A stretch of DNA of 64,000 bases, from positions 1,453,333 through 1,517,332 of the forward strand of contig JABBOT010000022.1 in NCBI GenBank assembly GCA_016165875.1, in the 5' to 3' direction. The stretch is from Acanthopleura granulata. Lineage: Eukaryota; Mollusca; Polyplacophora; Chitonida; Chitonidae. Every line of letters begins with the position of its first letter. The first letter of the stretch is position 1. The notes beneath the pieces were generated by a model, which saw only the letters and a list, made by a program, of their open reading frames with translations, had not been told where the DNA came from and did no database searches. A program made the position numbers and the translations under genes. Of the stretch, positions 8,100-38,300 are shown in pieces.

Positions 8100-8850
8100 A
8101 AATTTGATGAACTTGGAACAAACTCAAGAGAGTGTTTACAAGCCTTTGGAAAAATTAAACTTAAATGACCCCAATAACCTTAAAGGAAAAGGTCAAGGTC
8201 ACTGAAAATGAATGGGGTTGTTCCTCATGCCAAAGTTCAAGTATGGTGGAAGTTTGGTGAACTTATGCCAAACCATTCCAGTGATATCATGTTTACAAGC
8301 CTTTTATAAAATTTAACTTAAACGTCCCCAGTGACCTTGAAGGATAAGGGGAAGGCCACTGAAAATCAATAGGGTTCTTCCTAATGCCAATGTGTAAGTG
8401 TGGTGTAAGTTTGGTTAACTTGGGATACACCTTTCCAGAGATAGAGCATTTAAAAGCCTTTTATAAAATTTAACTCAAATGACCTCAATTACTTTGAAGA
8501 AAAAGGTCAGGGTTGCTGGAAATCAATCGGGTTCATTCTCACACCAATGTGTGTGATGCAAGTTTGGTGAAATTGGGCTGGACAGTTCTAGAGATAGAGC
8601 GTTTACAAACCATGTATAGAATTGAACTTAAATGACCTCAAAGATATGGAAGAAAAAGGTCAAGGTTGCTGAAAATCAATAGGGTTCTTCCTCATGCCAA
8701 TGTTTAAGTATGGTGTAAGTTTGGCAAACATTGGACAAACCATCCTAGAGATAGAGCATTTAGGAGGAATATGGGCGGACAGACAGATGGACGATGCCCA
8801 CTATAACAATACTCCTTGGCCAAAATTGGCTGAGGGGTGAAAAAGGAACC
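8100..8850. repeat. Degenerate repeat of roughly 160-bp units
   Basis: At least four diverged units in tandem. Each contains 'aaaaggtcaaggt..ctgaaaatcaat.gggtt', then 'ccaatgt..aagt.tggtg.aagttt', then 'agagatagagc.tttaaaagcc'. The right end (8,770-8,845) holds 'ggacagacagatggacgatg' and 'aatactccttggccaaaatt', a terminal piece that I associate with a repeat family common in mollusc genomes (from memory). Confidence 0.65.
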
Positions 8851-13127: not shown

Positions 13128-13247
13128 ATGGCGGACCCTCTGAATGCAGACGGCTTAGGGGAAGAAATCGACACTTCACCAGTCTCTGATGAACCTCCCA
13201 AATTCAAGGATCCATTAACAAGCAATGTTGACAGCGACGATGCAGAG
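13128..13247 (+). CDS. SNX30: SNX30 exon 1 (start, acidic N-terminus)
   Basis: ATG in the context CAGAATGGCG, encoding [18 protein letters not shown] and ending ..NVDSDDAE, 40 whole codons. Donor GCAGAG|GTTAGT. The frame stays open past the donor, so the exon end rests on the splice site and the phase of exon 2. Confidence 0.88.
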
Positions 13248-16200
13248 GTTAGTGGATCTCTGGGTTGTAAGTCCGTGTTTCGGAAGACAGGATGCTTTGG
13301 TGGTCTTAATCAACGCTTGGTGTTTTGGAATTGTCTCATATACGTAGATGTTTTGAAGGGGGCGGAGCTCATTCACAACGATCATGGTATCACAGCTGAT
13401 CACCAACACACAGTCAGATATGTAACTGATTTATGGATTGAATCGTGGGAAATATATGGGCTAATGTACAGGATTTCTAAAACCTGATGATGGGTGGATC
13501 CAATTCATCATGCATGAGATTACATGCTCAAGTCACACGTCATGATACAGACAATTTATAATGATAATAATAATAATAATATGTTTGGGATAATTGGTGA
13601 TTATTCTTTCATTTTGTACATAAACGTGTTCTTTGCTTCAGCAAGAGTTAATTGTAAGCTACCATAGTTGTCAAATTGTTGTTTTGTTTTGTTTTTTTCG
13701 TTGTTTCTTGTTTGTTTGTCAGCCCTACAGGTTGTGATACATTGGTATTTTGACACTGATGTATATATTTTTGTTTTGAGATGTTCTGACCTATTGTCTT
13801 GGGGGTTGTTGGTTGGTTTTGTGGAGTGGGGTGGGTGGGTAGATATCTTTATAAGGAGAGTGATCAAGTAAATCTTGATGTTATCTTCTTGCAGTTGGAG
13901 AGTCTGGACCTTGATACATCAGCCCATTCCGAAGGCAATGTTTCTCGAAGTTCCAGCTTGATCGCTGCCTTCAAGCTGGAAGATGAGAGTGATGTGGAAA
14001 CCCGAGATCTCTTTGTGGTTGTTGACAACCCAGAAAAACACACAGGCACCATGGACTCCTACATCACATTTAGATGTACTACAAGGGTAAGCCCTACCAC
14101 AGTTGTATCATAAATAAATAAAACTATTACATGTATTTACTAATGATAGCCATCAAGAGTAATACAACTGAAGATAAAAAGAAAGGGTTAGATCTATGTT
14201 ATAGTCTCATAGCTGTGTAACTCTTATGAGCCCTGATCATTTTCAAGGGTAGATGTTAAAAGGAACAAACCAATACATATTTGCACATACAGGCAAAGTA
14301 TTCATAGTGGAGGCCAATAGTTTCAAATGTTTATGCATGTAGACCTTTTTCTGTTTTCTCATCCTTTGAAGTTTATGATTGAGGTGTTTAAAGTATTGCT
14401 TTTTTCTTTGTTTTTGTTTCTTGAAGACCACACGGAGTGAGTATGACACTCATGAATACTGTGTAAGACGAAGGTACAATGATTTCCTCTGGCTGCGACA
14501 GAAGTTAGAAGAGTCACATCCTACCCATTTGGTGCCAGTAAGTAACACTGCACAGTGATAACAATGCAAGATATGACTGCGAATTCTCCAGCCTTTTTAT
14601 TGTGCTAACATGGAGTATTTTGATAAAGCTTTAAAGAGCATAGTAGCATTTAAGTTATTAATATGTTTGTTGATAAATTGTAACTTTCGTGAGCGTCAAC
14701 ATGTCTTTGTAACCAAATCATTTAGATGATTAATAAATGAGGAACCTTTCTCCCCTGAAGTAATTCAGGCCTAAACCGAACATTGGATATGGAGATCCTA
14801 ATTCAAATCCATCATGTGACCTACAATATAAACCCTTCATCCAACATACAGACAAATGGGTAGAATTTTGTGATCTTGACATCTTAATAAATTATTTACT
14901 GTGGATTTTATGTGGAACAGTTTATTAGTTCATCCACTTATACTGATCAACCTGTTTGGTGCAACTCTACAGAAAGCTGATTTATTTGTTTATTTGTGTG
15001 GAGGAAATAAATCATTGTCATGGATTACATTTACAACAATGTAGCTGACAGGTTCATGTTACTTGTACCCTCATGCATTATCATGTAAAACAATGTAGCT
15101 GACAGGGTCATGTTACTTGTACCCTCATGCATTATCATGTACAACAATGTAGCTGACAGGTTCGTGTTACTTGTACCCCCATGCATTATCATGTACAACA
15201 GTGTAGCTGACAGGTTTGTGTTACTTGTACCCCCATGCATTATCATGTACAACGATGTAACTGACAGGTTTGTGTTACTTGTACCCCTATGCATTATCAT
15301 GTACAACAGTGTAACTGACAGGTTCGTGTTACTTGTACCCCCATGCATTGTCATGTACAACAATGTAACTGACAGGTTCGTGTTACTTGTACCCCCCTGC
15401 ATTATGATGTACAACAGTGTAACTGACAGGGTCATGTTACTTGTACCCCTATGCATTGTCATGTAAAACAATGTAGCTGACAGGTTCATGTTACTTGTAC
15501 CCTCATGCATTATCATGTACAACAATGTAACTGACAGGTTCATGTTACTTGTACGCCCATGCATTATGATGTACAACAATGTAACTGACAGGGTCATGTT
15601 ACTTGTACCCTCATGCATTATCATGTTAGATGAGGATGTTAAGTGTACAACTTAGTCATATCAAAGATAAAAAAATTATGACTTGCATGATAAATGGATA
15701 AGTTAAGAATCATGAGTATTAATTATTACACAAGTAGCTGGTAGGTGTTAAAGTTTTAATGAGTGACAATAATCAACAGACCTGGCCTTATTTCATTGTG
15801 AGACCTAACTGTTAAGCTACATGTACACATACCATGTACTTGCATGAATGTAGATCTGTATTCAGGCCTGAAACATATTTGCAAACAATACAAATTTCCT
15901 GATTTAATTCAAAAACTGTGCAGTGCAAAAAATAGGTGTACTGTTATATAAAGGTATTGAAATTTTTTGGATGTCTTAAACAAGTCTTGGTGATGGTGAA
16001 GATTCTTCCCATTGTGGATCCTGAAATTCTGTGACATTGTTACTGTATGGCATTGTAACACATTGTCATCTCTGTTGGTCATGAAATAAGACATGCATGT
16101 GGAAAGTCATGAACTAAAATTGCCTACATAATGATTAAGAAGAAGGCCTAATGAGTTTAAATCTGTTTTAATGTTTCACCATGGCCTAGCTGCTAACCTT

Positions 16201-19200
16201 GTGGTGTTATGCTGTCAAAGCAATTAAACTGGAAGCAAAGTTGTGAACAGCTTTGGTAATGTATAAAAATGGTATGAATGAATAAGTCATGAGAGCTGTT
16301 GTCGTACTGTCTACATAATGAAATGAACGATGTGGCGATGTGTACATGAACAGTATTATTAATAAGACACGCCATCATTGCCCCCCTCCCCATCCTACCA
16401 CCCCCGTGAGAGAAAAAAAAATTAACAAAAATGTCATCAATTTGGTATGAGATAAAGAGCAGCAAATGAATACACGTAACAGCCATGATTGACAGAAGTA
16501 AGACACTTGTACCACTGCTAACCTGGTGACTATCAAACTCAAACCACTTCAGCAGTGCACTGTACACCAGACTAGCTGTCAAAGGAAATTCTTTCAGACA
16601 GGATTTTGTTTAAGATATACTTGATGATCATGATACAGTGCAGTATAACAGTGAAAGCAATTTGTTAATGATTTCCCAAAGGTTGGTGGTTCTTCCCCCC
16701 ACATAGTGGACCATCAATAGCTACAGAGGAAGATATCTCTTTCTGTTGTTGTTGTAGCCTCTCCCAGAAAAGCACAGTCTGAAGCGTTTGGACAGGTTCA
16801 GCCCAGAGTTTATCCGTGTGCGCCAGCGAGCACTTCAGAAGTTTCTGACCCGGATAGCTGACCATCCTGTGCTCTCTTTCAACTCACACTTCCAGGTGTT
16901 CCTCACAGCTAAGGCATGGGTAAGTCTTTCCCAGGGTTGATAGTGTGTATATTTCCAGTCTTCAGATTGCCTTTGTGTTGAAGGTCATGCTTACAGTCGT
17001 TGCCAGAGTGATTTTTTGGTGTTGACAAATAAAAACTATCTTCATACAGGCCAGGGTGTTTGAGATACAATGTTATGACTACAAAGTGATGTCCCTTTGC
17101 GACCTCACGTGGTTGGTTTTAGACCAGGTTGGATCAATCTGCCAGTTCTAAGACGAGGTGGTATATAATATGTATTCAAACACGACAAGACTTCTGAAAT
17201 CTGTTGGTTCTGGGTGGGTCTGGGTATTGCAAAAATAATGATACTCTGTTTAAATGTGAATACTGCCGTAAAGCGATGATGTCATTTTTCGTCGTGGGGT
17301 TACTGTGTTGTTGTAGTGATGTAAATAGAACACTACATATAGGTATGAAATCATTAAAGGGATTGATATACCTTTGTTTTGCAGGAGTTTGCAGCTCACA
17401 AGAAGCAGGGTTCTGGTCTGATAAGCCGTGTGGCTGACTCCCTTCACAACATGAGCGCTGCTTACATGATGAAGTCACGAAACCCCGAGTTCACGGCCAT
17501 GCAGGAATACATCATGACCTTCTCGGACAAACTGGGAGTGCTGGAGAGAATATCACAGCGTATAGTTAAGGAACAAACTGGTAAGATGTCTGCAAAAGTT
17601 GCAAGTAAATTTCAAAGTACTGATGTTCTAACCAGTTTGGTGTCCTACGGAAATGTTTTGACAAAAGAAAGGTATGGGAAAATATTTCTGTTTTCTTCTG
17701 AAAGATGTTTGTTAAGCCAAGAATATCCATGAAATTTCCATTAACTGTAATAGAAAAAATGTGTGAGGCAAATGGAAAGTTTGCACTTCAGGGATTTCTT
17801 GGGGTACTGTTGGGGCCCAGTATACTGTACACACTGTGGTATGACTGTGAAGTGTACATTACGGAATGGACCTTTACTCTTGGGACCCTGTGTACACTCC
17901 TTGGTGTGACTGTTGTAGATTACCTAATGGACCTGCACTCTTGAGACCCTGTGTACACTCTGTGGTGTGACTGCGATGTGTAGATTGTCTAATGGGCCTG
18001 CACTCTTGGGGTCCTCTGTACGCTGTGGTGTGTTACTGTGGTATATTACCTAGTGGACCAGTACCCTTGGGGTCCTGTGTACACTCTTTGGTGAGACTGT
18101 TGTAGATTACCTAATGAACCTGTTCTCTTGGGGTCTTCTGTACACTCTTTGGTGAGACTGTTGTAGATTAACTAATAGACCTGCACTCTTGGGGTCCTCT
18201 GTACGCTGTGGTGTGTTACTGTTGTATATTACCTAATGGACCTATACTCTTGGGACCCTGTGTACACTCTATGGTGTGACTGTTGTAGATTACCTAATGA
18301 ACCTATACTCTTGGGACCCTGCGTACAATCTGTGGTGTGACTGTTGTAGATTACCTAATGAACCTATACTCTTGGGGCCCTGTGTACACTCTGTGGTGTG
18401 ACTGTTGTAGATTACCTAATGGACCTATACTCTTGGGACCCTGCGTACAATCTGTGGTGTGACTGTTGTAGATTACCTAATGAACCTATACTCTTGGGAC
18501 CCAGTGTACACTCTTTGGTGTGACTGTTGTAGATTACCTAATGAACCTGTTCTCTTGGGACCCTGTGTACACACTGTTTTGAGACTGTTGTAGATTACCT
18601 GATGGACCTGTACTCTTGGGACCCAGTGTACACTCTGTGGTGTGACTGTTGTAGATTACCTAATGGACCTATACTCTTGGGGCCCTGTGTACACTCTGTG
18701 GTGTGACTGTTGTAGATTACCTAATGGACCTATACTCTTGGGGCCCTGTGTACACTCTGTGGTGTGACTGTTGTAGATTACCTAATGGACCTATACTCTT
18801 GGGGCCCTGTGTACACTCTGTGGTGTGACTGTTGTAGATTACCTAATGAACCTGTTCTCTTGGGACCCTGTGTACACACTGTTTTGAGACTGTTGTAGAT
18901 TACCTGATGGACCTGTACTCTTGGGACCCAGTGTACACTCTGTGGTGTGACTGTTGTAGATTACCTAATGGACCTATACTCTTGGGGCCCTGTGTACACT
19001 CTGTGGTGTGACTGTTGTAGATTACCTAATGGACCTGTACTCTTGGGGCCCTGTGTACACCCTGTGGTCTAACTCGGAAGAGAAGCTCACCCCAGCCCTG
19101 CTGTCGATGTCACACACCCTTGAGAAGTGTTCTGCTGCCCTCAAAGACCTGGTCAGTAAATAATGAAGCTTTTCTAGAATATTCATATGGAAACACTGCT

Positions 19201-22200
19201 TGCTTGTTACTGGCTGAGATTACTACACGTGGTAGTTCAGGCTTGTGCCTCGCCCTGGAAGGAAAATATTCCATATGCAGCCGTTCTGGTGTTTTTCCTT
19301 TTAAAATTACAGACTACTAATCACTGTGGCGATAGTATGAAGTAGGACCTTGAGTGATTGTTATCTCAGTGACTGATTGTAGCCGATGATGTTACAGTGT
19401 ACCGGGTTATTCTGTACTGTTGTGTTATCTTCAGTGTGATGTCGTCATGAAATGCTTGGTCATGAACATAATATATTAACTAAAGTGGTGCCAGAGTTCT
19501 GCTGTCTGTTTGCCAGGTCCCTGTTGACCACTAGGTTTTCATGATTTGCTGTATAACATATTATGCTGTTCTCACGTCATGACTTTGTTTTTAAATCAGT
19601 TTAAAAGAGTTCTGGTGAAATTTTACCAGTAGTAGAAAGGATTGATATTTTAGCTGTTAAACTGTTCTAAGTATAATGACATGCTTAGAGTTCTACATGT
19701 ACATGTATGTCTTGATTGGATAGATTGATGCCACAGATGATTGTCTGACCCAACCTCTCAAGGAGTACCTGCTGTACACAGAGGCTGTGAAGGTAAGGCC
19801 AACATCTTCTACAGCCTACACGTAGGATGCACTATGTTCTACTCATAAATCTACCCACAATGCAATGTAATTAACAGTGTGATTCAAGATGCAGTACAAA
19901 ATACAACACATGTGTAACAAATGATGTTCAAAGGCGCACCTCTATGAGGCCAGAGCCTCTCACCAATTCGGACACTGTGTTCAAGTCCAGCTCAGGCTGG
20001 CCTCCTTGGTCCTGTCTTATTGGATAAAACCACCTCATGCAGAGTTAGACGATTCATGATGCTGCACACATTGATGTCATCGGCACGGCAAATGCAGTGT
20101 GCAGTGCACAGCAATGCTACATGTGTACATAGCATTTATTTTGGCCCCATCATGAGTTGTGTCCCCTTGTGATTGATGCCAGATTCTGTGAGTTTGATAT
20201 GTACATTCTGTCCGGTGTATCAAGTCAGAGCAGAAATCATCATGCTCTCCCATTTAGTTCTTGTTGTGTGGAACATCGTGATTCGATGGCACTCGAAAGC
20301 AACTTGCTCATCAACTATCTTGAGCAAACAAACCATGATCTGAAACATGCAACAATTGTACAATAAAGTGACACAGATGTTTTACAAGTTACGTGACACA
20401 TTTGTGATTGTGTCACAACAGCAGCCAACCTTGATTTGTTTTGTTTTGCGAGGATATCAGGCGAATTTTTACTGATGTTAACTACCACGTCATAAATGTC
20501 GCTCCCTGATTCTCCGTCTCTGTGAGAAGTACATGTGCCCATTTCAGACTGTGTTACGGAGGAGAGATGCAATACAGATGGAGTATGACATGACAGTGGA
20601 GGAACTGAACAAGAGGAAAGATGAAAGGGAATTGGTGAGTTGAAAAAGACCAGTTTCTGCAGTTTTTCTGCTGTGACAAGCATCTGTCTGTCCATCAGTT
20701 GATCAGATTTTTGACATCCTATGAGGGGCCATTTTCACAACGAGGTGCCCAAGTACAAAGCAGCAGTGACACTTTGGGGAAGCTGTTGCAAATCAGCATT
20801 TGTTTCATTGAATGCCACTACTCATGTCAAAATAAATAAATATTTGGAAAATTTTTACACATGTAGTATGAAATGACCTAAAGTTATCCCCATGATTAAG
20901 TTGCACAGTGTGTCTGATTCTTAGAGTTTTATTGATCTTAGAAGTGCATTTTGAGGTTTGTTTGTATTAAAGGTTAGATGATATCAAAGTGAAAAAATGT
21001 AAGTTTCAGCACCAAACATATACGATTTTTGAACAAAATAATTGAAAATGGACAGCATAATCTAAGTTCCAACTTTAAATGTAGAAAAGATGATATGATT
21101 AACTCTGTTTGTCAGAGGAATTGAAAATATTGAAATCTTCAGAGGTGATATCCTAGATGTTACATAGTCTACATCTAGGTGAAGTGTGAAAACATTTTGT
21201 CTTGCAGCTAAAGATATCTGACCAGACATACTCCTTTGGGGCATTTCTTGGCAAAGATCCAGAGGACGTGAAGCAACAAAAACAGGAGAAACTAGAACAA
21301 CAAATTTTGGACGTAAGAATTCATGTCATCCTTATGCTGATGATAAAGCACGGTTGGATTCCCCATCCTTATTGTTTGCAGCATATGGCGACGAAAGTGA
21401 TCAGCTAATTGTGTGTGACTGTTTAAAAGTTTCTCAGCAATGTGCTAAAGTTCGGCTCCTTCATGTTTAAAACTGACAGCCATCGTATAAATAACAAAAT
21501 CTTGAATAGGAATGAAATCAGTAAGTATAATAAAATATATTATAGAAGGTAATGAGTTGCAATTGGTGTCTTACAAATTATAAATCAAGATTATGTCCAG
21601 TTTGGAGGAGAAACTGAATGAACAGAGGCTGGGAAATCTCACAGTGTACAGATAATAGATTGTTGTTTTGATCATGTATTTCCCATTTGACTACATATAT
21701 GTACATAGCTGATAAAGCATCATTACGCTAAGTACCTCAGGGGTAACTTTGTGAAAAAATTGAACTAATTGTTATCAAAACTAAGACAGCAGAAGTGAGG
21801 GTAACTGTAAACATTTAAGCTAACAGAATGAAAAGTATGGGTGAACAAACTCCTGTGTTTGGAAAGATAGACACTGTGATTCCAGTCATACCCTCCCCCC
21901 CCCCCTCCTTCTAACATCATTCTGCAGAGTGTGATGATATACATATGTAAAGAAATTCAATATTGATGGCCGTTTTATTGTTACAGCTGACAGCTCAGAT
22001 GGAGCAGCTCAATGACAAGACCGTGATCGCGAATGCCGATCTGAAGGCCGACATGGAGAGATGGCACAAGAATAAACGACGCGACATGAAAGAGCTGTTC
22101 ATGTCCACATGTGATCGGGAAATCAAGTATTATGAAACGGTAAGTAGGCAGATGAAGTCTTATAGTACAGTAAGTAGGCAGATCATGTCCAACAAAACAT

Positions 22201-24105
22201 TAACAAGGCAGATCATTTCTTATTTAACAGTAAGTAGGCAGATCATGTCTTACAATACAGTAAGAAGGCCAATCATTTCTTACTTTACAGTAAGTTGGCA
22301 GATCATGTCTTACAATACAGTAAGAAGGCCAATCATTTCTTACTTAACAGTAAGTTGGCAGATCTGGGCCCACTTGCATGAAACTTGTCTTTACGTTAAG
22401 AGCACGTAACTACCATGGCAACCAGTATTGTAGGTATTTTGTCAGCTAAGTACTCGTAATGTTAAGAGGGCTTCGTGCAGGTGGGCTCATGTCTTACAAA
22501 GCATTAAGTAGGCAGATCATGTCTTACAATACAGTAAGTAGCCTGATCAAGATGCACAAAAAGTAAGTGGGCAGATGATGCCTTACAATATAGTAAGTAG
22601 GCAGATCAAGTCTTGTGATACATTAAGTAGGCAGATAAAGGTTATGAAAACAGTGAGTAGGCAGATCATGTTGTACAAAACTGTAAGTTGTCAGATCATG
22701 TCTGACAATACAGTAAGTAGTCAGATCAAGTTTTGAAATGCATTAAGTAGGTAGATAAAGGCTGTGAAAACAGTAAGTAGGCAGATCAAGTTGAACAAAA
22801 CAGTAATAAGGCAGGTCAAACCTTATAATACAGTAAGTAGTCAGATCAAGTCTTGCAATACATTAAGTAGGCAGATAAAGGCCATGGAAACAGTAAGTAG
22901 GCAGATCAAGTTGTACAAAACAGTAAGCAGGCAGATCAAGCTGTACAAAAAAGTAAGCAGGCAGATCAAGTTGTACAAAACAGTAAGTAGGCAGATCAAG
23001 TTGTACAAAACAGTAAGCAGGCAGATCAAGTTGTACAAAACAGTAAGCAGGCAGATCATGTCATACGAAACAGTAAATAGGCCGATAAAGTCATACAAAT
23101 CAGTGGGTAGGCACATCGAGTCTTATGAAACAGTGAGTCAGTAGATTATGTCAAAAGAAAGCAGTATGTAAGCAGATCAGGTCTATGAAAACAGTGAATC
23201 AGGCAAATTAAGTCTTACATAACAGTGCCTAATTAGACAGATAACAATGAGCAGACAGATGAAGTCATATAGAACCTCTAGGTTCTATAAGGGTATAGGT
23301 AAGTATAGGTAAGTAGACAGATTAAGTTCTGGTAAAAGGTGATTAAACAGATCAGGTATTGCAAAACAGTGAATGGACAGATGAAGTCCTGTAAAACAAT
23401 TAGGTGAATTTATAAAAAAATTTATGGACAAATCAAGAAATAAAAAACATAAAGTAGGCAGGATAAATTTTAGGGAAAATTATATGGGCAAATTAAGAAT
23501 TACAAAACAATATGTGGAAATATCAAGTACATGTGTGACGAACAAGTATTTAGACAGGTGAATTTATGCAGGTGTGTATGAAAAATTACAATAAAATGTT
23601 ATCAGTGAAAATAGGTAAAATTTTATGAACTGTTAAGTGAACTTGTGGAGTTTTACATCACATTGTCATGGACCAACATGTTGGCAGATTATCTTGGCTG
23701 CATTAAAGAAACAATAAACAGGTAGACAGAGTATTAAATAACAGGTATAATAGGTAAAAATAGGTATAGGCAGATGAACTGTATATCATGGACTACTTTA
23801 CATATACAGGTACATGTAGATAGTTAGTTTTTCAACATTTCCAAAGTAAAAGCATGGAATTGAGCTACAAACTGTTATCTTGAATTTGCATATTTTATTT
23901 TTCATTGGTGATAAATGTTGTACTTTGTGGTTGTCAAGAAATATTTAAACATTAAATCAGCCCTGAGAGCGGTAATGTGATCTGTGTGTTGTTGTTACAG
24001 TGTTTAACAGCCTGGGAGAACGCCATTAGGTCAATGCAGGCCCCAGACCCCATGATCGTAGAGAAGCCCGAGGCTGTGGATTCAGGACACGGGTCTATAG
24101 ATTAG
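13128..24105 (+). CDS. SNX30: Sorting nexin 7/30, complete (11 exons, 476 aa)
   Basis: SNX7/SNX30 are PX-BAR proteins of early endosomes that pair with SNX4 in endosome-to-Golgi recycling and autophagy. Exons: 13,128-13,247; 13,895-14,086; 14,427-14,537; 16,758-16,919; 17,385-17,580; 19,021-19,151; 19,724-19,792; 20,548-20,634; 21,208-21,312; 21,987-22,139; 24,001-24,105; 1,431 nt, all phases consistent. Residues 1-77 are acidic and disordered. The PX domain spans about 78-195 ([12 protein letters not shown] start; RRRYNDF at 118-124, the RRY that contacts PI3P; PPLPEK at 141-146). The BAR domain spans about 196-476, with [11 protein letters not shown] in its last helix. Human SNX30 is 437 aa. 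The vertebrate SNX7/SNX30 pair arose from one ancestral gene; the INIP neighbour favours the SNX30 name. Two minisatellites in its introns 5 and 10 carry copies of its own splice sites. Confidence 0.95.
13895..14086 (+). CDS. SNX30: SNX30 exon 2 (start of PX domain)
   Basis: Acceptor TTCTTGCAG, donor AGG|GTAAGC. It encodes residues 41-104: a serine-rich linker and the first PX strands with [20 protein letters not shown]. Confidence 0.95.
14427..14537 (+). CDS. SNX30: SNX30 exon 3 (PI3P-binding RRRY motif)
   Basis: Acceptor GTTTCTTGAAG, donor CCA|GTAAGT. Residues 105-141 include [20 protein letters not shown], the core phosphoinositide-binding signature of PX domains, and the THLVP that leads into the proline loop. 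Confidence 0.95.
15033..15626. repeat. 54-bp minisatellite in SNX30 intron 3
   Basis: Eleven copies of a 54-bp unit (acaatgtagctgacaggttc, then 'gtgttacttgtacccccatg', then 'cattatcatgt'). As 54 is a multiple of three, open frames run through the array on both strands: up to 197 codons on minus with an 18-residue period ([13 protein letters not shown] type), 118 on plus. No splice or similarity evidence makes them genes. Confidence 0.92.
16758..16919 (+). CDS. SNX30: SNX30 exon 4 (end of PX domain)
   Basis: Acceptor TTGTTGTTGTAG, donor TGG|GTAAGT. Residues 142-195, from [13 protein letters not shown] through [17 protein letters not shown] to LTAKAW, corresponding closely to the vertebrate PX end. 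Confidence 0.95.
17385..17580 (+). CDS. SNX30: SNX30 exon 5 (first BAR helix region)
   Basis: Acceptor TTGTTTTGCAG, donor ACTG|GTAAGA. Residues 196-260 plus one base: [20 protein letters not shown] and on to [16 protein letters not shown]. The HKKQG..L.SR string is typical of the SNX7/30 linker to the BAR domain. Confidence 0.95.
17807..19068 (+). repeat. 61-bp minisatellite made of the exon 6 splice acceptor and exon start
   Basis: About 20 units of 61 bp fill the end of intron 5 and run without a break into exon 6. Each unit holds an intron-like end (gtgtgactgttgtag) followed by ~47 nt that match the start of exon 6 (attacctaatggacct.., encoding [16 protein letters not shown] after the split Asp). 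The last ttgtag, at 19,015-19,020, is the true acceptor. Units in 18,280-19,020 are nearly identical; the leftmost ones have decayed. The block starting atgaacctgttctcttggg occurs at 18,541 and again at 18,846, 305 bp (5 units) apart. Sixty-one is not a multiple of three, so two joined units shift frame and soon reach a stop. Confidence 0.95.
19021..19151 (+). CDS. SNX30: SNX30 exon 6 (BAR domain, source of the upstream array)
   Basis: The exon completes the Asp codon and reads [20 protein letters not shown], then [23 protein letters not shown]; donor CTG|GTCAGT. It corresponds to EYLVELREYGPVYSTW.. of the human protein. The first 47 nt are shared with every unit of the 61-bp array; the true exon is told apart only by what follows (tctaactcggaagag). 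Confidence 0.93.
19724..19792 (+). CDS. SNX30: SNX30 exon 7
   Basis: Acceptor GATTGGATAG, donor AAG|GTAAGG. It encodes [20 protein letters not shown] and AVK, matching the family's LPVLREYILYS helix. Whole codons, phase 0 on both sides. Confidence 0.92.
19925..20080 (+). mobile_element. Partial tRNA-derived SINE in SNX30 intron 7
   Basis: The segment with the B-box-like gttcaagtccagctc and the following caggctggcctcc matches, in opposite orientation, the tRNA-related part of the element at 60,925-61,195. The A-box part is degraded. Confidence 0.45.
20548..20634 (+). CDS. SNX30: SNX30 exon 8
   Basis: Acceptor CCCATTTCAG, donor TTG|GTGAGT. It encodes [20 protein letters not shown] and NKRKDEREL; the family shows S/MVLKKRDQ.QAE at the same place. 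A BAR helix with many charged residues. Confidence 0.95.
21208..21312 (+). CDS. SNX30: SNX30 exon 9
   Basis: Acceptor TGTCTTGCAG, donor GAC|GTAAGA. Residues 357-391: [20 protein letters not shown] then [15 protein letters not shown]. This part is variable among family members and rich in glutamine and lysine near its end. Confidence 0.9.
21987..22139 (+). CDS. SNX30: SNX30 exon 10 (BAR helix, source of the downstream array)
   Basis: Acceptor ATTGTTACAG, donor ACG|GTAAGT. Residues 392-442: [40 protein letters not shown] and [11 protein letters not shown]. The [11 protein letters not shown] string is nearly identical in human SNX30. The reading frame stays open for another 270 nt beyond the donor because the 30-bp repeats that follow are in frame with the exon. 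Confidence 0.95.
22123..23600 (+). repeat. 30-bp minisatellite made of the exon 10 end and its splice donor
   Basis: The last 17 nt of exon 10 plus the first 13 nt of the intron (atcaagtattatgaaacg|gtaagtaggcag) form the first of more than 30 tandem 30-bp units. Later units read like atcaagttgtacaaaaca|gtaagtaggcag; the array is regular to about 23,135 and decays to about 23,600. At least 20 units keep GTAAG or GTGAG. The true donor has G at position -1 while the downstream copies have A. The unit is a multiple of three, so use of a downstream donor would add ten residues (VSRQ(I/M)KSY-like) per unit in frame, until the stop near 22,407. A 124-bp palindromic insert interrupts the array at 22,365-22,488. 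Confidence 0.95.
22365..22488. mobile_element. Palindromic-ended insertion inside the donor array
   Basis: The 30-bp periodicity stops at cagatc and resumes with atgtcttacaa. In between lies about 124 bp with inverted ends (tgggcccacttgcatgaa and ttcgtgcaggtgggctc). I see no clear target-site duplication. It looks like a small MITE and it brings the first stop codon (TAA, 22,407-22,409) in the frame that continues from exon 10. Confidence 0.65.
24001..24105 (+). CDS. SNX30: SNX30 exon 11 (C-terminus and stop)
   Basis: Acceptor TTGTTGTTACAG. It encodes [20 protein letters not shown] and [14 protein letters not shown], then TAG. The CL.AWE string matches the end of the vertebrate BAR domain; the acidic tail is specific to this gene. 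Confidence 0.93.
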   Translation, partial: CLTAWENAIRSMQAPDPMIVEKPEAVDSGHGSID

Positions 24106-32406: not shown

Positions 32407-33474
32407 CAAAATCCTTAGTCACAAGCAGACATGGATAGGACAGGCAAAATCCTTAGTCATGTGCAGACAAGGATAGCACAGGCAAAATCCTTAGTCATGT
32501 GCAGACAAGGATAGCACAGGCAAAATCCTTAGTCATGAGCAGACATGGATAGGAGAGGCAAAATCCTTAGTCATGTGCAGACAAGGATAGGACAGGCAAA
32601 ATCCTTAGTCATGTGCAGACAAGGATAGCACAGGCAAAATCCTTAGTCATGAGCAGACAAGGATAGCACAGGCAAAATCTGTAGTCACGAGCAGACAAGG
32701 ATAGGACAGGCAAAATCCTTAGTCACGAGCAGACATGGATAGGACAGGCAAAATCTGTAGTCACGAGCAGACATGGATAGGACAGGCAAAATCTGTAGTC
32801 ACGAGCAGACATGGATAGGACAGGCAAAATCCGTAGTCACGAGCAGACATGGATAGGACAGGCAAAATCTGTAGTCACGAGCAGACATGGATAGGACAGG
32901 CAAAATCCTTAGTCATGTGCAGACATGGATAGGACAGGCAAAATCCTTAGTCATGAGCAGACAAGGATAGGACAGGCAAAATCCTTAGTCACGAGCAGAC
33001 ATGGATAGGACAGGCAAAACCTGTAGTCACGAGCAGACATGGATAGGACAGGCAAAATCCTTAGTCACGAGCAGACATGGATAGGACAGGCAAAATCTGT
33101 AGTCACGAGCAGACATGGATAGGACAGGCAAAATCCTTAGTCATGTGCAGACATGGATAGGACAGGCAAAATCCTTAGTCATGAGCAGACAAGGATAGGA
33201 CAGGCAAAATCTGTAGTCACGAGCAGACAAGGATAGGACAGGCAAAATCCTTAGTCATGTGCAGACAAGGATAGGACAGGCAAAATCCTTAGTCATGTGC
33301 AGACATGGATAGGAGAGGCAAAATCCTCAGTCATGAGCAGACATGGATAGGACAGGCAAAATCCTTAGTCATGTGCAGACATGGATAGGACAGGCAAAAT
33401 CTGTAGTCACGAGCAGAGATGGATAAGACAGGCAAAATCCTTAGTCACGAGCAGACATGGATAGGACAGGCAAA
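32407..33474. repeat. 38-bp minisatellite, about 28 copies
   Basis: The unit reads aaaatccttagtcatg then (a/t)gcagaca(a/t)gg then ataggacaggc. Two main variants occur, 'ccttagtcatg' and 'ctgtagtcacg', mixed along the array in runs. Very little other divergence, so the array is young. It lies about 1.8 kb downstream of the DCAF15 stop. Confidence 0.95.
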
Positions 33475-35325: not shown

Positions 35326-38300
35326 CTGGAAAACACAATTTAAGAAAACACAATCACTTGACTTCTTCATTAAATGCCCTGATCACATGTTTTATTTACG
35401 CTGTAATTCTCTGCATATTTACACAGTGCTACAGGTAAGTATTTTTTTGTGGCAGTGCAGTACTCCTCCAAATTTCTGCCGAGGACTACTGGCTTATATC
35501 ACAGAAGTACTGGTTTATATCACAGAGTACTGGTTTATATCGCAGGGGTACTGGTTTATATCATAGGAGTACTGGTGTATATCATAGGAGTACTGGCTTA
35601 TATCACAGGAGTACTGGCTTATATCACAGAAGTACTGGTTTATATCACAGGAGTACTGGTTTACATCATAGGAGTACTGGCTTATATCACAGGAGTATTG
35701 GTTTATATCACAGGAGTACTGGTTTATATCACAGGGATACTGGCTTATATCACAGGAGTACTGGCTTATATCATAGGAGTATTGGCTAATTGGGGAAAAC
35801 CAGTTAGCGTAAATAAACCATGCATATGCTTTTAATTATTTCTTAAAGGTCAAAAGGTTTATATGATTCAGCAATCTGTTCAATTCGTTGTTCATGCTGA
35901 GCTGATACCAAAAGCCACGTCTGACTAATGCCAAAATTTAAAGCCTTGTCCAAAAAGTTAGTTGTTGGTTCAGAGAGTGGAAAATTTGAAGCATTTGTCT
36001 TAAGGTAATACAGATAAGGAGGTCCAAATTTTAATTTATAGGACCTAAAAGTAAGCTCTAAATTTCTACTTCAAAATAAGAAATGGTTTTGTTTAATCGG
36101 TCACTGCACTGCCATCAATTAAGACTCGTGCATGTTTTGTTTTAATCGTCCCAACATTTAATCAAGCCAACATTGGCAATAACACTGGATTGCTTTTATC
36201 CGGAAAAGTTTTACTACAACTTTAAAAAAAAATCTTGACACTTGGCTTTCTTAGCAAGACAAACGAACGAATGATTGGTTATTATGCCTTAAACACATGT
36301 CAATATTTCAGCCATATCGTGGAGTTTAAACCAGGAAGCAGTGAATGGTTTTGAAACGATGTGGGCATGTTCAACAACAAATAAGATGTAGTCAGGGAAA
36401 TGTTTAAAACCAGTTATCTGACCAGGAGGACAAATCATACTGTCATGTCCATTGTGAGTGACAGGCCACAAATGACTCTCCAGCCACTGCACTCATGTTG
36501 CATCTGTCGGCACATTTTGTCTTTTTGATGACACTATGCATCATTATCATCAAGAAATGTTCCACTAAGCAAAATAACTATACTCCTCAAGCTAACATGG
36601 GTTTGAAAAAAAAAAGACATATTTTAGTGCATGTCCACCAAAATGGCATTACACTCCCACTGACAGCAAGTGTCACAATGTTAAGAGTGGTCTCCCATTG
36701 CAAAGTTTTTACAGAGTTATCTCCCATATTCAACTCGCGACTGCTTATCAACACGAAATGACCTACCCTGGTATGATTACTTTTAGAAATAAATGCGTAT
36801 CTTAATTTTTAGTGTCTTATTCGGTATACCTATTTTCTTACTTGAATGCTTATTGAGCACAGGCGTAAATTACCCCGATACACCCCTTACCTGGAGCACT
36901 GTTTACATGATTCAATTTTTGCATCCTGGTAACGTTATCCTGTTCTCAGGATGCTCTCTCATTGTTTGTGGGTGCCTCGGCGACAACATGTGCTCAACTG
37001 AGTGCTCAATCATCTTTGAATTCAATGCTCTCACATCATTGTGCGTATTATTATAAAAAAAAAAATGCAGGTAACCGACACCATAAAAGGTATATGAGGT
37101 CACCTGGAGAAAACTTTGTGAATCAAATCTGTCATGATTATGATCTGGACTGTATTGCTGTATAGCAACATGATCTACAACAAATGCCGTGAAAAACGGA
37201 TTTACACAGTCTACAGAAAGAGGGCCATGTGCCCCTTCAGCTTCGCTGTATTTTACAGTATTGTGATAACAAGGTATGAAGGCTCTGCGATATGTGAGGT
37301 GTAGTGTGACCTTCAGAACAAAGTCGGTGAGCTCCCTTCCATCTGTATGGTGTTCACATCCACACGTGAAAGTTTGTCAGTCACTTGCCACCACCAATAA
37401 ACTGACTGCCATTGTAAAATTAAAAATTCTTGAGTGCTGCATTTAACAACAACCAAATAAACAAATAAATAAAAGTATATTGTCTAAACAGATGCCATTA
37501 CACACTCTGTCAAGCACAGACGTTGATAAACACTACATCTTACAATTTCAGTCTTCGGCTTTAATTTTTTATTTAATTTTTTTTTTATATGAATTGTTGA
37601 ACAATTAAGCCTTGTTCACATATTGGAACTTTGTTGTACAAACATGCAGAATTCAACAAAATTGTCTCCTGACTATCAGTCACACTTGATTTTAGTTGTT
37701 GGAACGTACGCTCAGAACATTTCATACCATGTGACACAGACTTTAGGCACAGTGCAGACTTTATATTTACCTTTAATAACAGCTTCATTGGTAAGAAAAT
37801 GGACAGACGTGACATAAGACTGTGGTATGAAGGCCTGTTTACGAAGTGATACTAGCTCCTTTCTTTGCTGCCAAGTTTGTCTGAAATCAAACAGAACAAC
37901 ATAAACGAAACTGACTTATTTCATTTGCCAAAGTACATGTAACAATATTTTTGCCTAATCATGCCAGAATTCCATGTGTGCGAACAAGCTTTTGCATTTA
38001 GACAGATGGATATTTACGACTTCCTGATAGACCCACAAGCATGACACCCATTCACTGATACATGTCGTTAATTTATAACAAACAAAGCTACAGCCTGTCC
38101 GGATATTTTGATGCTAACATTGTAAATACATGTACATCTATTGGGAAGTAAATGACTTCTTCCCCTGTGGATGGGTGCTTCCCATATACATGCCACAACA
38201 TGTCATGGCAAGAAATCAATTATTTCCATTTCAGTTCTTCTTCTAGTTTGGCAACATCAGTTTTGACCATTTTCAACACAGGCTATTCCATGGATGCATG

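Follow-up and report, generated by a model that had tools for sequence, protein, structure and literature searches.

Probable junction-seeded minisatellites at a 5′ and a 3′ splice site of an SNX7/SNX30-like sorting nexin gene

A single sorting nexin gene was found to carry two minisatellites that repeat its own exon-intron boundaries, one with a 30-bp unit at the 5′ splice site of exon 10 and the other with a 61-bp unit at the 3′ splice site of exon 6. The gene lies in a 64,000-nt stretch of DNA, the whole of which was analyzed and is referred to here as the window. Both arrays are probably junction-seeded minisatellites of the kind named "mirages" in lancelets. Since junction-copying minisatellites are already known from those animals, the SNX-type gene described here is a further case. 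Splicing would normally proceed at 22139/22140 and at 19020/19021 (a slash marks a splice junction throughout), whereas the copies of these two junctions lie in introns and would normally be removed.

RESULTS

Gene model and features

The gene was modeled on the plus strand with 11 coding exons, which are joined by GT-AG introns with matching phases and would encode a protein of about 476 aa. The start codon was placed at about 13128; where exon 1 ends is uncertain, and three alternative ends keep the frame. With a rougher concatenation of the exons as the query, a match to the Pfam PX domain was obtained (PF00787, E=5.4e-22), and the best PDB match was the PX domain of SNX7 (3iq2, E=8.5e-44). 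The gene is thus designated SNX7/SNX30-like, a label that is suggested by sequence similarity and covers both SNX7 and SNX30. A PDB search with the C-terminal half yielded nine weak matches (the best to chromobox, E=0.033) and zero sorting nexins; the exon 10-11 join follows the GT-AG rule and phase. The exon numbering in a first-pass annotation of this DNA agrees with the model, in which exon 10 occupies 21987-22139 and exon 11 starts at 24001. Searching the 64,000-nt window against Rfam gave nothing at the gathering threshold. The features of the gene and of the two arrays are as follows.

13128..24105, plus strand: SNX7/SNX30-like sorting nexin gene
17858..19074 (about), plus strand: 61-bp array multiplying the exon 6 3′ splice site, its last copy being the real junction
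19021..19151, plus strand: exon 6, with the acceptor TTGTAG/ATTACC at 19020/19021
21987..22139, plus strand: exon 10, 153 nt, with the donor ACG/GTAAGT at 22139/22140
22116..22139, plus strand: 24-nt exonic portion of the putative seed unit, sharing the phase of the 30-bp array
22140..23225, plus strand: clear part of the 30-bp array, from TRF and wrap-around alignment
22365..22488, no strand assigned: 124-nt insert with imperfect inverted ends (MITE-like), its bounds inferred from the unit register; carries the stop that closes the frame
22534..22562, plus strand: 29-nt unit that, together with the 124-nt insert, restores the exon frame for later units
23226..23600, plus strand: degenerate units that continue the 30-bp array, distal limit not fixed
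24001..24105, plus strand: exon 11, the last coding exon, with a phase 0 join to exon 10

A 30-bp array starts at the exon 10 donor

TRF reported the array at 22140-23125, with a period of 30, 32.8 copies, and 68% matches. In a wrap-around alignment of the region 22080-23640, units start at 22140, 22170, and so on, and they are clear until about 23225 and degenerate beyond. The distal limit of the array was left unfixed, since this lenient alignment reached the end of the region supplied. The first-pass annotation had drawn the array as 22123..23600; its start at the exon 10 junction stands, and its distal part holds degenerate units instead of clear ones.

Aligned in phase with the unit consensus, the final 24 nt of exon 10 agree with it at 17 positions, a level equaled at only 1 of 62,405 other positions in the window. 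Across the exon 10 junction, 32 of 40 nt are identical to the best array copy, versus at most 22 of 40 for the 18 exon ends outside both arrays. This comparison covered 20 ends of exons 2 to 11, that is, 19 splice junctions and the stop codon, with the exon 1 donor left out. The in-phase match of the exon end gives the array the look of an exon-intron junction that has been amplified. These results bear out the earlier proposal that a 5′ splice site has been multiplied in phase with exon 10 from a seed comprising the exon end and the intron start, except that the exonic part of the seed is about 24 nt long and not 17.

After the authentic junction, 31 further copies were scored (22170 to 23194), and GTRAG is kept in 21 of them, in line with the earlier count of more than 30 units, at least 20 of which carry GTAAG or GTGAG. 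GT has become TT in 5 of the 28 ungapped units. On average, units diverge from the consensus by 17%, and the interior of the array (22563-23163) is homogenized, its identity being 0.798 at a lag of 120 and 0.751 at a lag of 30. When the end sequence of the 124-nt insert was searched for with up to 3 mismatches, it was found in the window solely at the insert's own two ends.

The exon 10 frame remains open up to the insert

The frame of exon 10 spans seven complete copies plus half of the next one before it enters the 124-nt insert and meets a TAA stop; the nine open units counted previously were too many because the insert was included. The seven copies that precede the insert all continue the exon frame without a stop, and six of them have GT, giving open donors at +30, +90, +120, +150, +180, and +210 nt (+10, +30, +40, +50, +60, and +70 residues). 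The second donor copy (22200), which is the +60-nt site, reads TTAACA, and a donor for +20 residues therefore does not exist. The predicted gain of 10 residues per unit thus holds for the six open in-frame donors (+10 and +30 to +70) and fails at the +20 step. All 24 copies scored after the insert sit behind a stop.

An open frame by itself is little proof here, because an array with a period of 3n and a stop-free unit stays open by construction. A 54-bp array deep in an intron of the same gene contains a 206-aa antisense open frame. The absence of indels was also considered as proof of frame constraint and was rejected, since another array (2360-2922, 79% matches), with a 29-bp period that is no multiple of three, likewise shows 0% indels.

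Tests for selection on the 30-bp units gave results that depended on how the relatedness of the units was treated. When the units are treated as independent, 3 stops are present in the exon frame, versus 9.75 in a neutral simulation (P=0.013), 9.6 in a second neutral simulation (P=0.007), and 6.6 in a column shuffle of all 28 units (P=0.0135); the shuffle gave P=0.40 for the first 7 units and P=0.14 for the other 21. On the same assumption, non-synonymous and stop codons together number 84, versus a mean of about 98, and fall below all 1000 simulations, and third codon positions are slightly more variable (P=0.046). Taken at face value, these differences favor some past coding of the units in the exon frame. 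The open antisense frame shows an excess of stops (11 versus 5.9 expected). On a minimum spanning tree of the units, which allows roughly for shared ancestry, 3 stops were seen versus 5.7 expected, a difference that is not significant (P=0.18). The stop-codon deficit, significant with independent units and lost on the tree, was thus rejected as proof of coding. The unit-tree dN/dS is about 0.73 in the exon frame, the lowest of the frames tried (the others being 0.86, 1.43, and, for antisense, 0.89), and 0.92 for the first seven units. Retention of donor columns +1 to +6 is not significantly better than that of the rest of the unit (P=0.135). Two control arrays, the 54-bp one and a 21-bp one of which 12 of 14 units were kept, show no stop deficit in six open frames; they offer little power because their divergence is low.

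Copies of the exon 10 donor are weak for this gene

Donors were scored with a matrix of human frequencies and by pairing with the U1 5′ end; the host may differ, and the scores are relative only. The authentic exon 10 donor (ACG/GTAAGT) scores 10.34 with a U1 pairing energy of -10.9 kcal/mol, versus 6.29 and -7.2 kcal/mol for the usual copy (ACA/GTAAGT), and the copy donors at +120 and +180 nt read GTAAGA and score 4.73. The two weakest of the nine authentic donors scored are those of exon 9, which ends GAC/GTAAGA (5.36), and exon 3, which ends CCA/GTAAGT (7.16). The former value is reached or exceeded by 19 of the 31 copies and the latter by 1 of 31. By this measure, the copies fall at the weak end of the donors in this gene.

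The reported difference at position -1 was confirmed, with G in the authentic donor and in 0 of the 31 copies. That it might suffice to keep the right site in use was not upheld: the real exon 3 donor has A at -1, and A at this position alone therefore excludes no copy. The G/A difference was thus ruled out as the sole discriminator. It may nonetheless help site choice, given the score of the exon 10 donor and the single copy that reaches 7.16.

A 61-bp array runs through the exon 6 acceptor

A second junction array of the same gene, absent from the first-pass annotation, spans the start of exon 6. TRF placed it at 17826-19068, so that its end falls within the exon. The 61-bp unit runs TGACTGTTGTAG/ATTACCTAATGG onward, and its last copy is the real acceptor at 19020/19021. 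The exon 6 junction and the upstream copies are identical at 39 of 40 nt, AG precedes 17 of the 20 unit starts listed (the authentic one counted), and there are runs of identical units. A decoy acceptor at 18716 is the same as the real acceptor over 200 nt on the upstream side and 16 nt on the downstream side, another at 18777 over 90 and 16 nt, respectively, and ten other decoys that were compared have 11 to 90 nt upstream in common with the real one. Because the decoy at 18716 is locally identical, exon sequence further downstream, or position, must discriminate. When upstream acceptors of this array were translated, their use would lead to a premature stop in 7 of 7 cases.

Other repeats and open frames in the window

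An exon-like stretch (a TTACAG ending at 2214 and an open frame at 2189-2422) contains or immediately precedes the start of the 29-bp array at 2360-2922, which might be a third case of an array adjoining an exon end. The 54-bp minisatellite (15019-15626) is inside an intron of the SNX7/SNX30-like gene and away from its exons; a 38-bp minisatellite at 32407-33474 and the 21-bp one at 35482-35785 are tied to no exon. A 157-bp tandem repeat with a AAGGTCAAGGTCA motif occupies 8129-8762. On the minus strand, a long open frame at 44252-45625 matches DDB1- and CUL4-associated factor 15 (PDB 6sj7, E=1.6e-09), and PDB searches with the minus-strand frame 36912-37376 and with a piece of it returned nothing useful.

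DISCUSSION

The two arrays share three properties with lancelet mirages. Their units hold sequence from both sides of the neighboring junction, exon end and intron end alike (32/40 at exon 10 and 39/40 at exon 6, and 17/24 for the end of exon 10), splice signals are present in many but not all copies (GTRAG in 21/31 and AG in 17/20), and tandem-repeat turnover has homogenized their interiors, as seen in the identical 61-bp units, the 200-nt repeat, and the lag-120 peak. Boundary-spanning tandem repeats were described in lancelet Adh3, where they received the name, and in lancelet globin genes they occur at a 3′ boundary (BflGb6) and at a 5′ boundary (BflGb9), with AG or GT signals in many copies and haplotypes that differ in length (PMC3087553). 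As in those genes, the duplication found here is minisatellite-like, involves a 5′ or a 3′ exon-intron boundary, keeps the signals in part, and is internally homogenized. The differences from the cases described in that paper (PMC3087553) lie in unit size (150-160 bp in the globins and 10-72 bp in Adh3, versus 30 and 61 bp here) and in copy number (6 and 3 in two BflGb6 haplotypes, versus 31 scored here), and the SNX gene has two arrays.

We envisage that a short tandem duplication captured the end of exon 10 together with GTAAGT and that a separate one captured the end of intron 5 together with the start of exon 6. Replication slippage or unequal exchange would then have expanded each array into the intron, with the splice site copied each time; both the direction and the mechanism of this growth are read back from the present arrays. 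As local sequence hardly discriminates at the 3′ array, we infer that attachment to the rest of the exon decides, and the right sites would be kept mainly in this way (exon definition); the greater strength of the authentic donor would assist at the 5′ array. It follows as a prediction that a low in-frame leak is possible at the nearest 5′ copies and that selection would act against leak at the 3′ array.

A different reading takes the 30-bp copies as real alternative 5′ splice sites, which would produce a ladder of SNX proteins with 10, 30, 40, 50, 60, or 70 residues inserted ahead of the last coding exon. Its appeal comes from a period that is a multiple of three, from the first seven copies, which are open in frame with GT in six, from the 19 of 31 copies whose scores equal or exceed that of the weakest among the nine authentic donors (5.36), and from the stop and codon signals that appear when units are taken as independent. 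An exon of 153 nt lengthened by 30 nt would also still be of ordinary size. We nevertheless consider it unlikely. The usual copy is far behind the authentic donor in score (6.29 versus 10.34) and in U1 pairing (-7.2 versus -10.9 kcal/mol), 7.16 is reached by a single one of the 31 copies, and the GTAAGA sites, at 4.73, make up two of the six in-frame donors. The +20 step is absent, a 3n array is open by construction, and allowing for the relatedness of units removes significance (3 stops versus 5.7, P=0.18), with dN/dS at about 0.73 overall and 0.92 in the first seven units. Moreover, lancelet mirages were reported without disturbance of splicing (PMC3087553, PMC3902484). A variant, in which the 5′ array acts as a donor ladder that leaks in frame, is quite unlikely too: exon 10 would then be extended occasionally by 10 to 70 residues, and the BAR region would be lengthened in steps that depend on copy number and so could differ between individuals or cells.

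Two further readings were weighed. The copies could be decoys that bind U1 snRNP, or enhancers, without being cut, and would then help define exon 10 or shield the intron from early polyadenylation. Donor-like sites (PWM of at least 6) are indeed dense in the array, at 16 per kb over about 1.1 kb, versus 2.8 per kb elsewhere in the window. However, the donor columns of the unit are no better conserved than columns 7-15 (0.88 versus 0.90), and exon 10 has a strong donor of its own; such a role is very unlikely. That the array is an assembly artifact is hardly credible. Tandem arrays are often misassembled, and the 61-bp array does contain identical units, but the 17% mean divergence of the 30-bp units from their consensus and the presence of the 124-nt insert make it unlikely that the array was invented, although its copy number may still be wrong. 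Junction-seeded minisatellites remain the preferred reading for both arrays.

Among published cases, lancelet PGBD5 likewise has two splice-site-containing arrays in one gene, its exons 3 and 4 carrying repeats of 60 and 108 bp (PMC3902484). Its copies number 2 or 7 and 3 or 6, depending on the assembly, and its first units are both said to abut 5′ splice sites (PMC3902484), versus one 5′ and one 3′ site in the SNX gene. The PGBD5 authors inferred undisturbed splicing, set aside a repeat-derived extra exon of the gene model, and cited troponin C as a further case (PMC3902484). For the globin genes, RT-PCR, together with the Adh3 data, likewise suggests that mirages do not interfere with splicing (PMC3087553). 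In the introns of lancelet VCBP3, neighboring exon sequence has been copied with splice sites, as complete or partial exons, some of which have canonical sites; unlike the SNX arrays, these copies are not described as a minisatellite in that paper (PMC2632668). Two other repeats are linked to splicing: CeRep25B of Caenorhabditis elegans is a minisatellite near alternative splicing regions, for which the abstract gives no origin from a splice junction (PMC4039745), and an intronic VNTR of ABCA7 affects splicing according to the title of the paper, a title with no mention of a junction-copying unit (PMC5954066). Passages on lancelet huntingtin, and passages from reference lists on U1 and SRSF1, contain no further mirages, and junction-seeded arrays outside lancelets were not recognized among the open-licence papers listed by the searches.

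Mirages have been proposed as an origin of new introns (PMC3087553). In the gene described here, they would provide two natural tests of splice-site choice: at the 3′ array, a decoy is locally identical to the real acceptor, and at the 5′ array the copies are weaker than the authentic site, most of them outscoring the gene's weakest real donor yet weaker than its other donors. Some repeats in the window may be molluscan in character; in a lancelet, the gene would be one more with mirages. In any other host, minisatellites seeded by junctions would represent a mutational process wider than in the papers found, from which new exon ends and introns could arise.
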